Assembly: GCA_002729515.1 (NCBI GenBank)
Contig: PBYF01000010.1
Location: forward strand, 1 to 64,000
Source: Deltaproteobacteria bacterium
GTDB taxonomy: Bacteria; Myxococcota_A; UBA9160; SMWR01
Reading direction: 5' to 3'
Length of the DNA: 64,000 nucleotides
The translations under genes and the position numbers were made by a program. The notes below the pieces were generated by a model that was given only the letters and a program-made list of their open reading frames with translations, had not been told where the DNA came from and did no database searches. This document shows, piece after piece, positions 1 through 5,575 of this stretch (the first letter of the stretch is position 1; the number at the start of each line of letters is the position of its first letter).

Positions 1-196
1 CATCCGTGCACCGCGAATCAGCCTCAGGCGGGCGAGAAGCATCCGTGCACCGCGAATCAGCCTCAGGCGGGCGAGAAACATCCATGCACTGCGGAATCAG
101 CCTCAGGCGGGCGAGAAACATCCATGCACTGCGGAATCAGCCTCAGGCGGGCGAGAAACATCCATGCACTGCGAATCAGCCCGGCGGAGACGAAAG
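1..196. repeat. Tandem repeat array, 39-40 bp unit, about five copies
   Basis: Units begin at 1, 40, 79, 119 and 159, each starting CATCC(G/A)TGCA and containing GAATCAGCCTCAGGCGGGCG. Units 1 and 2 are 39 bp and differ only at the last base; units 3 and 4 are 40 bp and identical to each other; unit 5 decays after about 24 bases. The mixed 39/40 period cannot hold a reading frame, so the array is non-coding. Each unit contains a small GCC-TCA-GGC hairpin. The first unit starts at the window edge, so the array probably continues upstream. It ends about 58 bp before the phosphatidyltransferase start at 254. Confidence 0.9.
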
Positions 197-253: not shown

Positions 254-1420
254 ATGCCGACGCCGCCGGAACCCGCGGCACCTGCCGCGTGGATCGTCAC
301 ACCCGCCGGGACCCCCACGTTCGAGGTCTGGGGCCTGCGTCCCGTCGAACGCCTGCAGCGCTCGCTCGAGCGGGCCGGCTGCATCGCTGCGCGGGTGCTG
401 GGCGACGCAGATGCTCCGCAGACTCCCGCCACCGGCAGCGTCGTGGTGGCGCGCTCCGACTGGATCTACGACGAGCGCCTGGTCGAGGCACTCGTCGGTG
501 CCGAGGACGACGTGCTGCTGGTCGCGCCGGAAGACCGAGTGCCGGTCGCAGCACGTGTCTCGGCCGAGCGCGCCGCGTCGACGCTGGCCGCATTGCGCAC
601 GGGGCGGGGCGACCTCGACCTGCCCACTCGGGTGCCGGTGGAACTCGCTCCGTCCTACACAGCAAAGCTCCGGAAGACCGAGCCGCCCTATCTAGTGGCG
701 GCCCGCCCAGAGACGCTGCATGAGATCGAGGCACTCACGTTCGCCGCGTCCTATAAGGGCGCCACCGACCTGGTGACCAAGTGGGTCTTGCCGCGCCCGG
801 CACGCGCCGTGACGCGCCGGCTCGCCGCTTCCCACGTACACCCCAACACGGTGACCCTGGCAAGCTGGGTCCTGGCCATCGCGGCCTTCGCGCTCTTCTG
901 GTCGGGGAGCTTCGGCCCCGGACTCATCGCCGCGTGGGGAATGACCTTCCTCGATACTGTCGATGGAAAGCTGGCGCGCGTGACACTGACCTCGAGCCGG
1001 CTCGGTGACTTTCTAGACCACGGGCTCGACCTGGTGCACCCGCCCTTCTGGTGGTGGGCCTGGGGCGCCGGCATCGGATGGGCCTGGCACCCGGAGACGC
1101 TAGTCGTCGTGGCCGGATACTTCGTCGGACGCTTGATCGAGGGCGTATTCCTCGCGACATTCGGCTTCGAGACCCACAGTTGGCGTCCCATCGACACGCT
1201 CTTCCGCACGATCACGGCGCGGCGCAACCCGAACCTCATCCTCTTCAGCGTCGGGACAGCCGCCGGGCGCCCGGACCTCGGCATGACGCTCGTGGCGCTC
1301 TGGACCGCCGCATCCCTGGCCTTCCACACGCTGCGCCTGCTTCAGGCCTTTGCGGCACGGCTGCGGGGAGAGAACGTGACGCCGTGGAACCGAGACCTCG
1401 CCGGCAAAGCGGCCGGCTGA
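254..1420 (+). CDS. CDP-alcohol phosphatidyltransferase with N-terminal extension
   Basis: 388-residue membrane enzyme expected to transfer a phosphatidyl (or similar) group from a CDP-activated lipid to an alcohol. The full family signature D-x2-D-G-x2-A-R-x8-G-x3-D-x3-D lies at about residues 234-259 (DTVDGKLAR followed by GDFLDHGLD), and hydrophobic segments surround it. About 180 residues precede the catalytic part, with no membrane segments and a stretch that looks like a degenerate nucleotidyltransferase or Rossmann-type domain. I chose ATG 254 (MPTPPEP) because the frame upstream runs into the repeat array; AGGA lies about 9 bases before it. It heads a lipid module with the next two genes. 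The product headgroup cannot be read from sequence. Confidence 0.88.
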   Translation: MPTPPEPAAPAAWIVTPAGTPTFEVWGLRPVERLQRSLERAGCIAARVLGDADAPQTPATGSVVVARSDWIYDERLVEALVGAEDDVLLVAPEDRVPVAARVSAERAASTLAALRTGRGDLDLPTRVPVELAPSYTAKLRKTEPPYLVAARPETLHEIEALTFAASYKGATDLVTKWVLPRPARAVTRRLAASHVHPNTVTLASWVLAIAAFALFWSGSFGPGLIAAWGMTFLDTVDGKLARVTLTSSRLGDFLDHGLDLVHPPFWWWAWGAGIGWAWHPETLVVVAGYFVGRLIEGVFLATFGFETHSWRPIDTLFRTITARRNPNLILFSVGTAAGRPDLGMTLVALWTAASLAFHTLRLLQAFAARLRGENVTPWNRDLAGKAAG

Positions 1421-1666
1421 AGGTCCGGCGTCCGTTCGGGAAACGAATCACCACCGATCACCCGCGGGGTACGGAGTTGCTTGCCGTTTGCACCCCAAGT
1501 GGTGTACTTCTCTGCGCGTCACCGGAAAAGGAACCGGCCGGCCCCCACATGAGGTGAAGTAGACGCCACATCGGACCGATCCTAGAGCCGGTCCGAAACC
1601 CCCTTTGGGAGAGATCCCTCACTCCCCGGCGTCCCTAACCACTGATCCTCCCGGTAGGAGTCGAAT

Positions 1667-2623
1667 GTGCAGATCGGCCTGATCAACAATCTCCGTGCGG
1701 GACGCAGCGATCGCCTGGTGTCGAGGATGCTGGGTGTGCTGCGCGACTACCCGGAGGTGCACCACGTCGAGACGAATCGGGCGGGGGCGCTGCCCTACGC
1801 CATCACCGACCTGGCTCGCCGCGGCATCGACCTGCTCCTGGTCAACGGTGGGGACGGCACGCTCCAGCACACCCTGACCGAGATCCTCCGCAACGAGAGC
1901 TTCGACCGCATCCCGCTCGTCGCCCCGCTCCGCGGCGGCCGCACCAACATGACCGCCAAGGACCTGGGGGCCACGCGCAATCCCTTGCACGGGATGCGCG
2001 CGGTGGTGGATGCGGCGCGCAGCGGCCGGCTACACGAGCGCTTCGTGCACCGTCCCGTCATGCGCGTGTCCTTCGACCGGGGCCAACGCTCGGAGTACGG
2101 GATGTTCTTCGGCATCGGCATGATTCCGCGGGCCATCTCGCTGGTCCACGAGGTCTTCCCGCCGGGACGCACCCAGGGCTCCCTGGGCGCGGGCCTCGTC
2201 ACCATGGCGTTGGTGGCCAAGACGGCTCTGCGTCCGCGGGCGGGCATCCTGGTGCCGGACAAGGTCGACGTACAACTCGACGGCGAGGCGCTCGATCGCG
2301 CCGAATTTCGCCTCGGCATCTCGACGACGCTGCAAAAGCTCTTTTGGGGCCTCGATCCGTTCTGGGGCCAGGAGCGCGGCGACCTGCGCATGACGTTCAT
2401 CGCCAGCGACGGCCAGCGCTTCGCTGCAGCTGCACCCGGCGTCCTGTGGGGTCGCCCGCCGGCTTTCACCACGCCCGAGAACGGCTACGTGAGCCGCAAC
2501 GTAGACCGCGCACAGCTGCGACTGTCCTGCGGCTTCACCATCGATGGCGAGATCTACGGACCGCGAACCGACGAGGTGGTAACACTCACCACCGACCGGC
2601 GCGTGACCTTCGTCCGCGCCTGA
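1667..2623 (+). CDS. Diacylglycerol-kinase-family lipid kinase
   Basis: 318-residue protein of the DAGK catalytic family (YegS/DgkB type), which phosphorylates a lipid hydroxyl with ATP. The nucleotide-binding NGGDGT motif is at about residues 59-64, and a second conserved block reads GGRTNMTAKDLG. There are no membrane segments, as is usual for this soluble kinase type. The GTG start at 1667 is supported by GGTAGGAG about 7 bases upstream; the ATG two bases earlier is in another frame. It follows the phosphatidyltransferase by about 245 bp and precedes the Tam41-like gene by 7 bp, so it would supply phosphatidate to that enzyme. The lipid substrate (diacylglycerol, ceramide or other) is inferred only. 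Confidence 0.85.
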   Translation: MQIGLINNLRAGRSDRLVSRMLGVLRDYPEVHHVETNRAGALPYAITDLARRGIDLLLVNGGDGTLQHTLTEILRNESFDRIPLVAPLRGGRTNMTAKDLGATRNPLHGMRAVVDAARSGRLHERFVHRPVMRVSFDRGQRSEYGMFFGIGMIPRAISLVHEVFPPGRTQGSLGAGLVTMALVAKTALRPRAGILVPDKVDVQLDGEALDRAEFRLGISTTLQKLFWGLDPFWGQERGDLRMTFIASDGQRFAAAAPGVLWGRPPAFTTPENGYVSRNVDRAQLRLSCGFTIDGEIYGPRTDEVVTLTTDRRVTFVRA

Positions 2624-2630
2624 TCTCACC

Positions 2631-3587
2631 GTGAGCGCCGGAGACGAAGCGCTGGTCCGCCTGGCGCGAGAGGAACTGGCGCGCCCGGCACCCGACGCGG
2701 CACGCCGTGTCGCTGCGGCGATCTGCACGCGCACTGGCAACGCCACGTTGGGAGTCGTGTTCTACGGCTCGTGCCTGCGCAGAGACAGCGCCGAAGGCGT
2801 CTTGGACTTCTACGTCATCGTCGATGATTACGCCGGTGCGCTCGGCCCCGGCTGGCTCGCGCGCGTGAGTGATTGGCTCCCACCGAGCGTCTTCTACATC
2901 GAGTGTCCGGCCTCTGACGGGAGTGTCCTGCGCGCGAAGTACGCCCTGCTGACGCTCGAGGACTTCGCCCGGGGAGCCGTGTCGGGCGGGTTCCGCAGCG
3001 GGATCTGGGCGCGCTTCTGTCAACCCGCGCTCGCCCCCTGGGTGCGCGACGAGGCAGCGCTCGAATCGATCGCCGGCGTCTGCGCGCAATCGGTGCGAAC
3101 GGCGGTCGAGACCGTGACGCCGCTGCTCGAGGGTCCATCGGATGCGGAGGAGTTCTGGCAGACCGTCTTCGCCGAAACCTACAGGCGCGAACTGCGCTCC
3201 GAGAGCGTCTCGACGATCCGCTCACTCCACGCCGCGGCGCCAGAACGCTACGAGCGGGCACTCCGCGCTGGCCTCGCCGCGTGCGAGCAGGAGCGCCTGT
3301 TCGCAGTCGAGTGGAGCGGCCCTCGCTTCGCCCTCGAATGGCCCGCGGGCCGGCGCGAGAAGCTGCACCGCAGATTCCGGCGCCGGATCGCATGGGCGAA
3401 GTGCGCCTACGTGGCGCAGTTGCTCAAGACTGCCTTCACGTTCGGCGACTGGCTGCCGTACGCCTTGTGGAAGGTCGAACGACACACGGGAGCCGAGATC
3501 CCGTACACCGAACGCCAGCGCCGCCACCCGCTCATCTTCGGCTGGCCACTGCTCTTCCGCGTCCTGCACAATCGCGAGTTGCGTTAG
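2631..3587 (+). CDS. Tam41-like nucleotidyltransferase (candidate CDP-diacylglycerol synthase)
   Basis: 318-residue soluble protein. Residues 44-66 show a nucleotidyltransferase core, FYGSCLRR followed by VLDFYVIVDD, matching the YGS...(M)LDF.(F/I).VDD arrangement of mitochondrial Tam41, which makes CDP-diacylglycerol from phosphatidate and CTP. Further on, KYALLTLEDF and ARFCQPA resemble the Tam41 KYGV-S...D and GRLQKPV regions as I remember them. GTG start, 7 bp after the lipid kinase stop, so co-transcribed. Between a lipid kinase and a CDP-alcohol transferase this activity would complete a pathway. It could instead be another nucleotidyltransferase-fold enzyme; the assignment rests on motif recognition. 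Confidence 0.62.
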   Translation: MSAGDEALVRLAREELARPAPDAARRVAAAICTRTGNATLGVVFYGSCLRRDSAEGVLDFYVIVDDYAGALGPGWLARVSDWLPPSVFYIECPASDGSVLRAKYALLTLEDFARGAVSGGFRSGIWARFCQPALAPWVRDEAALESIAGVCAQSVRTAVETVTPLLEGPSDAEEFWQTVFAETYRRELRSESVSTIRSLHAAAPERYERALRAGLAACEQERLFAVEWSGPRFALEWPAGRREKLHRRFRRRIAWAKCAYVAQLLKTAFTFGDWLPYALWKVERHTGAEIPYTERQRRHPLIFGWPLLFRVLHNRELR

Positions 3588-3675: not shown

Positions 3676-4122
3676 CTAGGCGGCCGACTGCGCCAGGACG
3701 CTGCTCATGTAACGCGTGATGCCGGTGACATCGGCTCGCTGCGTCCGGCCCGCAAGGCCCATCATGCGCTCGGCGAGCACTGCCTCGGCGCGGGCCACAG
3801 CGGCGATGCCCGCGTCCGTGGCGCGAAGCTCGATGCCCCGGCGATCCGTCGGCACCGGCACGCGTTGGAGCAAGCCCGCCGTTTCGAGCCCGTCGACCAG
3901 GGACGTCAGCGTGGGGCGACTGACCGCGAGCCGGGTAGCCAGCGCGCTGGCTCGGCTCGGACTTCCCGCCACTTCGGCGAGCAGACGGTACTGGGGCAGG
4001 CTGATGCCGGTCGCCTGGCACGCCTGCTCGGCGATGCGGGCCAACTTCGCCAGCAGGCGAATTCCAAGCCGCATGTCCTCGTCGATCTCATTGGTGGGCA
4101 GTAGCACGTTGGGGGCGCTCAT
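3676..4122 (-). CDS. MarR-family transcriptional regulator
   Basis: 148 residues, normal length for the family. The winged helix-turn-helix is visible at about residues 55-105 (SRASALATRLAVSRPTLTSL, then GLLQRVPVPTDRRGIELRAT as the wing) with dimerisation helices on both sides. The ATG start at 4122 has AGGAG about 11 bases upstream. A 24-bp inverted repeat 31-54 bp upstream of the start overlaps the likely -10 box, so autorepression is likely. It lies downstream of the DUF192 gene on the same strand, with no divergent partner at the operator. Its ligand is unknown; MarR proteins usually sense aromatic or other small molecules. Confidence 0.92.
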   Translation of the reverse strand: MSAPNVLLPTNEIDEDMRLGIRLLAKLARIAEQACQATGISLPQYRLLAEVAGSPSRASALATRLAVSRPTLTSLVDGLETAGLLQRVPVPTDRRGIELRATDAGIAAVARAEAVLAERMMGLAGRTQRADVTGITRYMSSVLAQSAA

Positions 4123-4226: not shown

Positions 4227-4745
4227 TCAGCGGGCCTGGCCTACGAGTACGTCATCCCCCAGGGGGACATGATCTCCGATGCCGAGACCCAGCTGAGCCA
4301 GGCGCCCGCCGGCCACCTCGATGGCAAAGCGCACGGGCGCGGAGCTCGTGTAGACGGTGAGGCGCCGCTCGTAGTCGCCCCGGCTCTCCCCGGGCCGCCG
4401 CCGCGGCTCTATCGGCATCTGGTGGACAGTGACCACCCTTCCCGTGTCGTCCAGGAACGCGACGTCGATCGGAACCTTGCAATCGCGCATCACCATGCTG
4501 CGCTGGCCAACACTCGGGTACACGAAGAGCATGCCCGCGTTTTGCCCGATCCGCGTGCGGCCGGAAAGCCCACGCGACCGCGTGCCCTGATCCGTGGCCA
4601 ACTCGAGCGCGAAGATCTCGCCGCCCAGCGTCACCCGCACGACCGGAAGGGACGGCGTGCCCGAGTCGTCGGCAAACGTTCCCAAATTGGCAGACACCAC
4701 CAGCGCAGCGGCCACCAAGGCGAACGGGACACCGCGGCGAGGCAT
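4227..4745 (-). CDS. Secreted DUF192 family protein
   Basis: 172 residues. An N-terminal hydrophobic segment (FALVAAALVVSANLGTFA) looks like a signal peptide. The mature part carries the DUF192 pattern: TRSRGLSGR, GMLFVYP, then MRDCKVPIDVAFLDDTGRVV. The family is a small beta-rich fold of unknown function, usually exported. The ATG at 4745 is preceded in frame by GTG at 4748; either could start and neither has a clear Shine-Dalgarno. It is divergent from the SDR gene at 4772 with only 26 bp between, so the two promoters must overlap. The MarR gene follows on the same strand about 100 bp later but has its own promoter. Confidence 0.85.
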   Translation of the reverse strand: MPRRGVPFALVAAALVVSANLGTFADDSGTPSLPVVRVTLGGEIFALELATDQGTRSRGLSGRTRIGQNAGMLFVYPSVGQRSMVMRDCKVPIDVAFLDDTGRVVTVHQMPIEPRRRPGESRGDYERRLTVYTSSAPVRFAIEVAGGRLAQLGLGIGDHVPLGDDVLVGQAR

Positions 4746-4752
4746 CACGAGG

Positions 4753-4771: not shown

Positions 4772-5575
4772 ATGAAGCCCTCGGTCCTGATCACGGGTGC
4801 ATCCAGCGGCATCGGAGCCGCTGCAGCGCGCCTGCTCGCGGACCGCGGTTTTCGCGTCTTCGGAACCAGCCGCAGGCCCAAAGACACGGCAGCCCAGGCC
4901 CCGCATGTCGAGTGGATCACCATGGACGTGTGCGACGACACATCCGTCGAGCACGGCGTCCGTTCCGCCCAGTCGGGTGCGGGCCATCTCGACGGGCTCG
5001 TCTGCAATGCGGGTTACGGGATCTTCGGCAGCGTTGAGGAGGTGCCCCTCGAGCAGGCGCGCGCCCAATTCGAAACCAATTTCTTCGGCGTGCTCCGCAC
5101 ACTGCGTGCGGCGCTCCCCGCCATGCGCGAGTCGCGCCGCGGCCGCATCGTATTGGTGGGTTCCCTGGCCGGCCGCGCGCCGATCCCGTTCCAGGCGCAC
5201 TACTCGGCGAGCAAGGCGGCCGTCGAAGCACTCGCCCTGGCGCTGCGCAACGAACTCCACGCTTTCCGGATCGGGGTCTCGCTGGTCGAGCCGGGCGACA
5301 TCCACACAGAATTCAACTCGGCGATGGAATGGGGCGACCCGGGAGCGTCCGCCTATGCCGCTCAGGCGCTCCGCACCGAGCGGATCATCCGCGAATCCCT
5401 GCCCCGGGCCCCAGAACCCGAGGAAGTCGCCCACGCCATCCACCGCGCGCTCACGGCCCGGCGCCCCCGGGTTCGGTACGCCGTCGGTGCCGAATCGACG
5501 TTGGTCCCGCTGGCGCGACGTCTGCTCCCGGACTGGCTCTCACTCAAGCTCATCCGAAACCACTTCGGCCTCTGA
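4772..5575 (+). CDS. Short-chain dehydrogenase/reductase
   Basis: 267-residue classical SDR using NAD(P)H on an alcohol or carbonyl. The N-terminal TGASSGIG nucleotide motif (about residues 8-15), CNAGYG, the catalytic Ser in VLVGSLAG, and the Y-x3-K pair in [11 protein letters not shown] are all present. The residue after the glycine motif region (TSRR) suggests NADP preference. Length and motifs resemble the 17-beta-hydroxysteroid or retinol dehydrogenase-like group that acts on lipophilic substrates; the substrate cannot be assigned. The ATG start lacks a Shine-Dalgarno and follows a -10 box closely. A thiolase gene follows 125 bp downstream. Confidence 0.9.

Follow-up and report, generated by a model that had tools for sequence, protein, structure and literature searches.

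A probable cpgABC-like ceramide-headgroup module in a Myxococcota genome, with a third protein of predicted Tam41 fold

We analyzed the first 64,000 nucleotides (called here the window) of contig PBYF01000010.1 (C16) from a Deltaproteobacteria bacterium placed by GTDB in Myxococcota_A (assembly GCA_002729515.1). Three consecutive genes at positions 254-3587 encode a cytidine diphosphate (CDP)-alcohol phosphatidyltransferase, a lipid kinase, and a putative nucleotidyltransferase, and we conclude with high confidence that they constitute a Myxococcota version of cpgABC, the ceramide-headgroup module of Caulobacter. The best explanation overall, to which we assign a probability of about 0.7, is that the kinase produces ceramide-1-phosphate, the third protein converts it to CDP-ceramide, and the transferase attaches the head group. 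This explanation is based on the protein families and the fold, on residue conservation, and on synteny and the shared occurrence with serine palmitoyltransferase (SPT), from which we infer the synthesis of CDP-ceramide by CpgC and the head group of this organism.

Results

As a preliminary description of the window had reported, the three open reading frames lie in a row on the plus strand (Table 1), with gaps of 246 bp and 7 bp, and Pfam confirmed that the first two belong to the CDP-alcohol phosphatidyltransferases and the DAGK-type kinases. The catalytic motif of the transferase (DTVDGKLARVTLTSSRLGDFLDHGLD; pattern DxxDGxxAR...GxxxDxxxD) and the GGDGT motif of the kinase are intact. The N-terminal ~150 aa of the transferase had no family match in Pfam or NCBIfam, and its reading frame is also open farther 5', across a tandem repeat to the contig end. 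Its homologues encoded 5' of the kinase are 45-61% identical to it in Myxococcota-type loci and 36-48% identical in alpha-, beta-, and gamma-proteobacterial loci. The kinase shares the DAGK_cat domain and the GGDGT motif with YegS, BmrU, and DgkB. However, it scored at most 31 bits against the curated models of these lipid kinases, and with a profile built from CpgB kinases of the alpha, beta, and gamma types it reached 249 bits, compared with 22 bits for the YegS-like kinase of the same genome. By these sequence scores, the kinase falls among the CpgB ceramide kinases rather than the YegS/diacylglycerol kinases.

The third protein had no credible match in Pfam or NCBIfam. When 84,980 species genomes were scanned, we obtained 36 relatives (28-51% identity) in Myxococcota/Deltaproteobacteria metagenome-assembled genomes (MAGs), in Alphaproteobacteria (Kordiimonadales, Rhodospirillaceae, Dongia, and Glacieibacterium), and in some beta- and gamma-type MAGs. 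Because neither phmmer with the protein itself nor hmmsearch with a 36-member profile found anything credible among the PDB sequences, a fold search was needed. The AlphaFold2 model of the protein had a predicted local distance difference test score of 92.9 and a predicted template modelling (TM) score of 0.90. When this model was compared with the PDB by Foldseek, ranks 1 to 4 were occupied by SpTam41 (6ig2 and 6ig4; E = 5e-8 to 6e-7, probability 1.0), a protein with a nucleotidyltransferase and winged-helix fold, aligned over about 280 columns with TM scores of 0.48-0.56. The next matches were ANT(4') nucleotidyltransferases, with E near 1e-4. The best structural match is therefore Tam41 and not an unrelated nucleotidyltransferase, in agreement with the preliminary description, which had recognized a Tam41 core (YGS...LDF...VDD) in the protein.

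When the window protein was aligned with 35 of its 36 relatives, Y45, G46, R50, D59, V64, D65, K103, R128, F129, Q131, P132, E187, R189, E191, K266, T270, Y277, K281, and H285 were invariant, and S47 was kept in 35 of the 36 sequences; thus, the YGS motif and the first two Asp residues have not been lost in the homologues, and the GYGS motif and catalytic Asp of Tam41 have their counterparts in YGS and D59. The second D of VDD (D66), however, is kept in only 25. Alignment of the family by hhalign with three Tam41 sequences gave a weak but co-linear match (probability 48%, E = 2e-4), an improvement on the weak match with a single Tam41 sequence; the identity of the yeast sequence used was verified solely through its similarity to the Tam41 entries of the PDB. 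YGS, the next D, KYxVxS, RFxQP (RFQKP in Tam41), and TYxxELR...E (SYxGDIR...EN in Tam41) occur in the same order in both. Against the Tam41 model PF09139, only 1 of the 36 family members matched at all (E = 0.0021), and none exceeded the cut-off. The best match to this model among 190 alphaproteobacterial genomes (locus L070; E = 6.5e-5, 22.6 bits, under the 24-bit cut-off) was itself a member of the present family, adjoining an SPT-like gene. As judged from the predicted structure, the third protein is a remote full-length relative of Tam41, and by profile score it is not a member of PF09139. It differs from Tam41 in that its second invariant acid, D65, is variable there, and that its genomic context is sphingolipid rather than cardiolipin synthesis.

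The co-occurrence of the three genes, for which the preliminary description had proposed a survey, was found in other genomes. The kinase gene lies directly 5' of cpgC in nearly all loci that are long enough, and the transferase gene lies 5' of the kinase gene in most. Most complete loci show the arrangement cpgA-cpgB-cpgC; in several loci of alphaproteobacteria and a few of Myxococcota type, only the kinase and CpgC are found together. A cultured bacterium, Eilatimonas milleporae DSM 25217 (locus L027), is among the carriers of the cluster. Beside the module, the alphaproteobacterial loci encode SPT (NF047599, 606-619 bits), acyl carrier protein, a CerR-like epimerase, LptF/LptG, and also the fatty acyl-AMP ligase PRK09192 (NF006624, 805 bits). 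In locus L095, from the same order as the window genome, a 3-ketodihydrosphingosine reductase-like (KDSR-like) protein, SPT, LptFG, a CpgD-like protein, a second CpgA-type transferase, a CofC-like protein, a phosphoesterase, cpgA, an AttH-like open reading frame (orfX), cpgB, and cpgC lie within 17 kb. The SPT of L095 is 67% identical to the SPT-like protein of the window genome, and CpgD-like homologues (45-63% identity) occur in other Myxococcota cpg loci. In many relatives the KDSR-like gene of the window is conserved at a distance of 0.9-3 kb 3' of cpgC, and in L095 it is immediately next to spt.

In a survey of 189 genomes of the phylum, an SPT-like protein (threshold, >500 bits) was found in 16 of the 19 genomes with the third protein and in 7 of the 170 without it (Fisher's test, 3e-15, a value inflated by relatedness). 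Among the Myxococcota-type genomes of the first scan, 19 of 20 encode such a protein (538-580 bits).

The genes of this organism probably continue on a second contig. C5 begins with the same 39-40 bp tandem repeat as C16, in the opposite orientation (L084:1-93), and this repeat was found in none of the other fetched loci; it probably caused an assembly break between the two contigs. Read outward from its repeat-bearing end, C5 encodes a phosphoesterase, a short-chain dehydrogenase/reductase (SDR), a CofC-like nucleoside triphosphate (NTP) transferase, KdsA, a CpgD-like NTP transferase, and an LptF-LptG fusion. Since the standard order in the relatives is CofC(+), phosphoesterase(-), cpgA(+), C5 very probably joins C16, as judged by gene order. 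The presence of KdsA in the cluster links genes for the lipopolysaccharide (LPS) core with those for sphingolipids. The SPT-like protein of the genome is encoded on C64, separately from BioF on C43, and its best NCBIfam model is SerpalmtaseCFB (547 bits); in the putative ceramide-synthesis set, it is accompanied by the KDSR-like protein in place of CerR. The genome also carries CdsA on C97 (PF01148, 191 bits).

In L002 (3924-5033) and about 30 other Myxococcota-type loci, a protein of ~350 aa with a signal-peptide-like sequence and no Pfam family is encoded between cpgA and cpgB. Its AlphaFold2 model (local score, 87) was most similar in Foldseek to the AttH-like protein NE1406 (2ich, E = 2e-12), which has a double-lipocalin fold. 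Because yeast Svf1, a proposed ceramide carrier, likewise has two lipocalin domains, it is conceivable by analogy that this protein is a lipid carrier in the operon. It is absent from the window, and a single-query search of the window's own genome gave no match.

Table 1. Features of the window (C16) and of contig C5 (locus L084)
Feature	Position	Strand	Length	Remarks
Tandem repeat, 39-40 bp unit	1..181	.		4.6 copies; very start of contig C16
cpgA-like CDP-alcohol phosphatidyltransferase	254..1420	+	388 aa	Pfam CDP-OH_P_transf, 8.6e-9
cpgB-like lipid kinase with DAGK_cat fold; by sequence, probably a ceramide kinase	1667..2623	+	318 aa	GTG start; Pfam DAGK_cat, 8.9e-9
cpgC-like Tam41-fold nucleotidyltransferase, probable CTP:ceramide-1-phosphate cytidylyltransferase	2631..3587	+	318 aa	GTG start
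MarR-family regulator	3676..4122	-		Between cpgC and the reductase gene; homologue at the same place in a few relatives (clusters 31/32)
DUF192 protein	4227..4748	-		Between the MarR and reductase genes; Pfam
SDR reductase, KDSR-like	4772..5575	+		KdsR NF049977, 205 bits
KdsA (Kdo-8-phosphate synthase)	L084:2912-3745			Within the cluster, here and in several relatives
CpgD-like NTP transferase	L084:3809-4585		258 aa	PDB relatives include IMPCT 4jd0; putative CpgD function
LptF-LptG fusion	L084:4630-6915		761 aa	Adjoins the CpgD-like gene

Discussion

The phosphosphingolipid cluster of Caulobacter spans CC_1165-CC_1152, in which CC_1159, CC_1160, and CC_1161 encode a CDP-alcohol transferase, a ceramide kinase, and a protein with the InterPro domain of CDP-diacylglycerol synthase (PMC11324152; PMC12275187; PMC10331486). 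In these genes (cpgABC; CCNA_01217-01219), the three families of the window recur, and their order is identical. Furthermore, counterparts of the Caulobacter accessory set (CC_1152, CC_1153, CC_1155/1156, and CC_1158), namely CpgD-like, CofC-like, phosphoesterase, and LptF/G proteins, are encoded near window-type loci, and both systems are associated with SPT. Orthology with the Caulobacter genes is judged through the copies that alpha-, beta-, and gamma-proteobacteria carry in this cluster. In contrast to the known systems, the present host belongs to Myxococcota instead of the alpha-, beta-, or gamma-proteobacteria, and the window kinase and CpgC are only 25-30% and 28-43% identical, respectively, to the proteins of those groups. 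Moreover, the SPT-like protein of the window genome is nearest to a Bacteroidota-type model, LptF and LptG are fused, and most relatives have the additional AttH-like secreted protein.

In the pathway that we favor, the kinase would phosphorylate ceramide to ceramide-1-phosphate. The Tam41-fold protein would then transfer cytidine monophosphate (CMP) from cytidine triphosphate (CTP) onto ceramide-1-phosphate, as Tam41 does with phosphatidate, to give CDP-ceramide, and the transferase would displace CMP and add the head group. CDP-glycerate is one likely substrate of the transferase, possibly supplied by the CpgD-like enzyme of the adjoining contig; CC_1152 (CpgD) produces CDP-glycerate, and it has been compared with IMPCT 4jd0 (PMC12275187). 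The product would be a phosphosphingolipid of the ceramide phosphoglycerate type, and the LptFG-like permeases and other neighbors suggest its export to the outer membrane. For the third protein taken separately, the assignment as a CTP:ceramide-1-phosphate cytidylyltransferase seems to us slightly better than even.

In the preliminary description, the same series of enzymes was proposed to convert diacylglycerol into phosphatidate, CDP-diacylglycerol, and a glycerophospholipid, the third protein being a bacterial Tam41. Such a series, in which a Tam41-fold nucleotidyltransferase acts between a lipid kinase and a CDP-alcohol transferase, is sensible, and the genes are functionally linked, but the lipid was probably wrong. 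It is true that Tam41, including the Firmicutes enzyme, acts on phosphatidate, that the fold of the third protein matches Tam41, and that the kinase has a DAGK fold. However, the kinase is CpgB-like; CC_1160 (CpgB) was identified as a ceramide kinase by assay (PMC10331486). The loss of CpgB in Caulobacter leaves phosphatidate unchanged. The alphaproteobacterial copies lie beside spt, acpR, cerR, and aasR, L095 carries SPT and a KDSR-like gene, the window genome already has CdsA, and no match to PF09139 was found in it. For these reasons diacylglycerol is probably excluded as the substrate, and we consider the glycerophospholipid pathway highly unlikely. The description of Tam41 as a mitochondrial enzyme is also outdated, as a bacterial Tam41 (PDB 7ecd) is known from Firmicutes (Kimura et al. 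2022, cited in PMC11646218), and the trio has been described in Caulobacter as cpgABC.

Several observations weigh against the CDP-ceramide pathway. The sequence likeness to Tam41 is remote, as seen in the single PF09139 match, the hhalign probability of 48%, and TM scores of about 0.5. The KDSR-like protein scored under the NF049977 cut-off (400 bits) and the SPT-like protein under its NCBIfam cut-off (640 bits), and AasR, the Caulobacter-type acyl ligase, has no close homologue in the window genome (best, 29%). Within the order alone, the association with SPT is modest (16 of 19 genomes against 7 of 15, p = 0.025). As for CpgC itself, its authors noted the CDP-diacylglycerol synthase domain and suggested that it might yield nucleoside diphosphate-activated ceramide (PMC11324152); its activity had not been established as of May 2026, and papers of 2025 and 2026 call the mechanism unidentified (PMC13228409). 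In addition, the first phosphoglycerate of the Caulobacter lipid needs cpgB and cpgC but not cpgA (PMC11324152; PMC12275187), and hence a CDP-ceramide route needs another transferase. When such a protein was sought in the window genome, only one CpgA-type transferase was found. A second CpgA-type CDP-alcohol transferase is encoded in L095 (9535-10785) and L088 (8732-9961), and part of one in L008; those of L095 and L088 are candidates for the missing first transferase.

The dispensability of cpgA, with no second transferase known, is accommodated if the third protein of a cpgABC-like set has some other acceptor for the nucleotide, or if it joins ceramide-1-phosphate directly to glycerate or phosphoglycerate. 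Direct attachment by CpgC was the first proposal, made from mass spectrometry. However, the authors judged it to be energetically unfavorable, and the Tam41 fold with its conserved nucleotidyltransferase residues points to the transfer of CMP from CTP. Thus, we regard this possibility as serious but rather unlikely.

Another possibility concerns only the head group: the Myxococcota transferase might add inositol phosphate or another alcohol to activated ceramide. The transferase did match NCBIfam models of archaetidylinositol-phosphate synthase (50 bits) and phosphatidylinositol-phosphate synthase (37 bits), both below the threshold. These matches do not discriminate, because a CpgA-type transferase of an alphaproteobacterium matches the same models. 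Furthermore, a CpgD-like gene is present near Myxococcota loci. No paper on a myxobacterial ceramide phosphoinositol was found in the literature search. A head group other than phosphoglycerate appears quite improbable.

Earlier publications already cover the cluster, and the domain annotated in CpgC, in Caulobacter and further members of the alpha-, beta-, and gamma-proteobacteria; no description of the cluster in Myxococcota was found in the literature searched. The present study adds its Myxococcota branch, the accessory genes, and a match between the folds of CpgC and Tam41 over the full length, with a map of conserved residues. The unexplained step from ceramide-1-phosphate to ceramide phosphoglycerate belongs to a pathway that permits a Gram-negative bacterium to survive without LPS and sets the polymyxin sensitivity of Caulobacter. 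The fold match and the invariant active-site residues point to a specific, testable activity for this step, the formation of CDP-ceramide from CTP and ceramide-1-phosphate. Whether CpgC at large is a family of Tam41-fold CDP-ceramide synthases, spread over Myxococcota and proteobacteria, we consider evenly balanced. If this is the case, bacteria would have a liponucleotide route for sphingolipids, parallel to that through CDP-diacylglycerol for glycerolipids.

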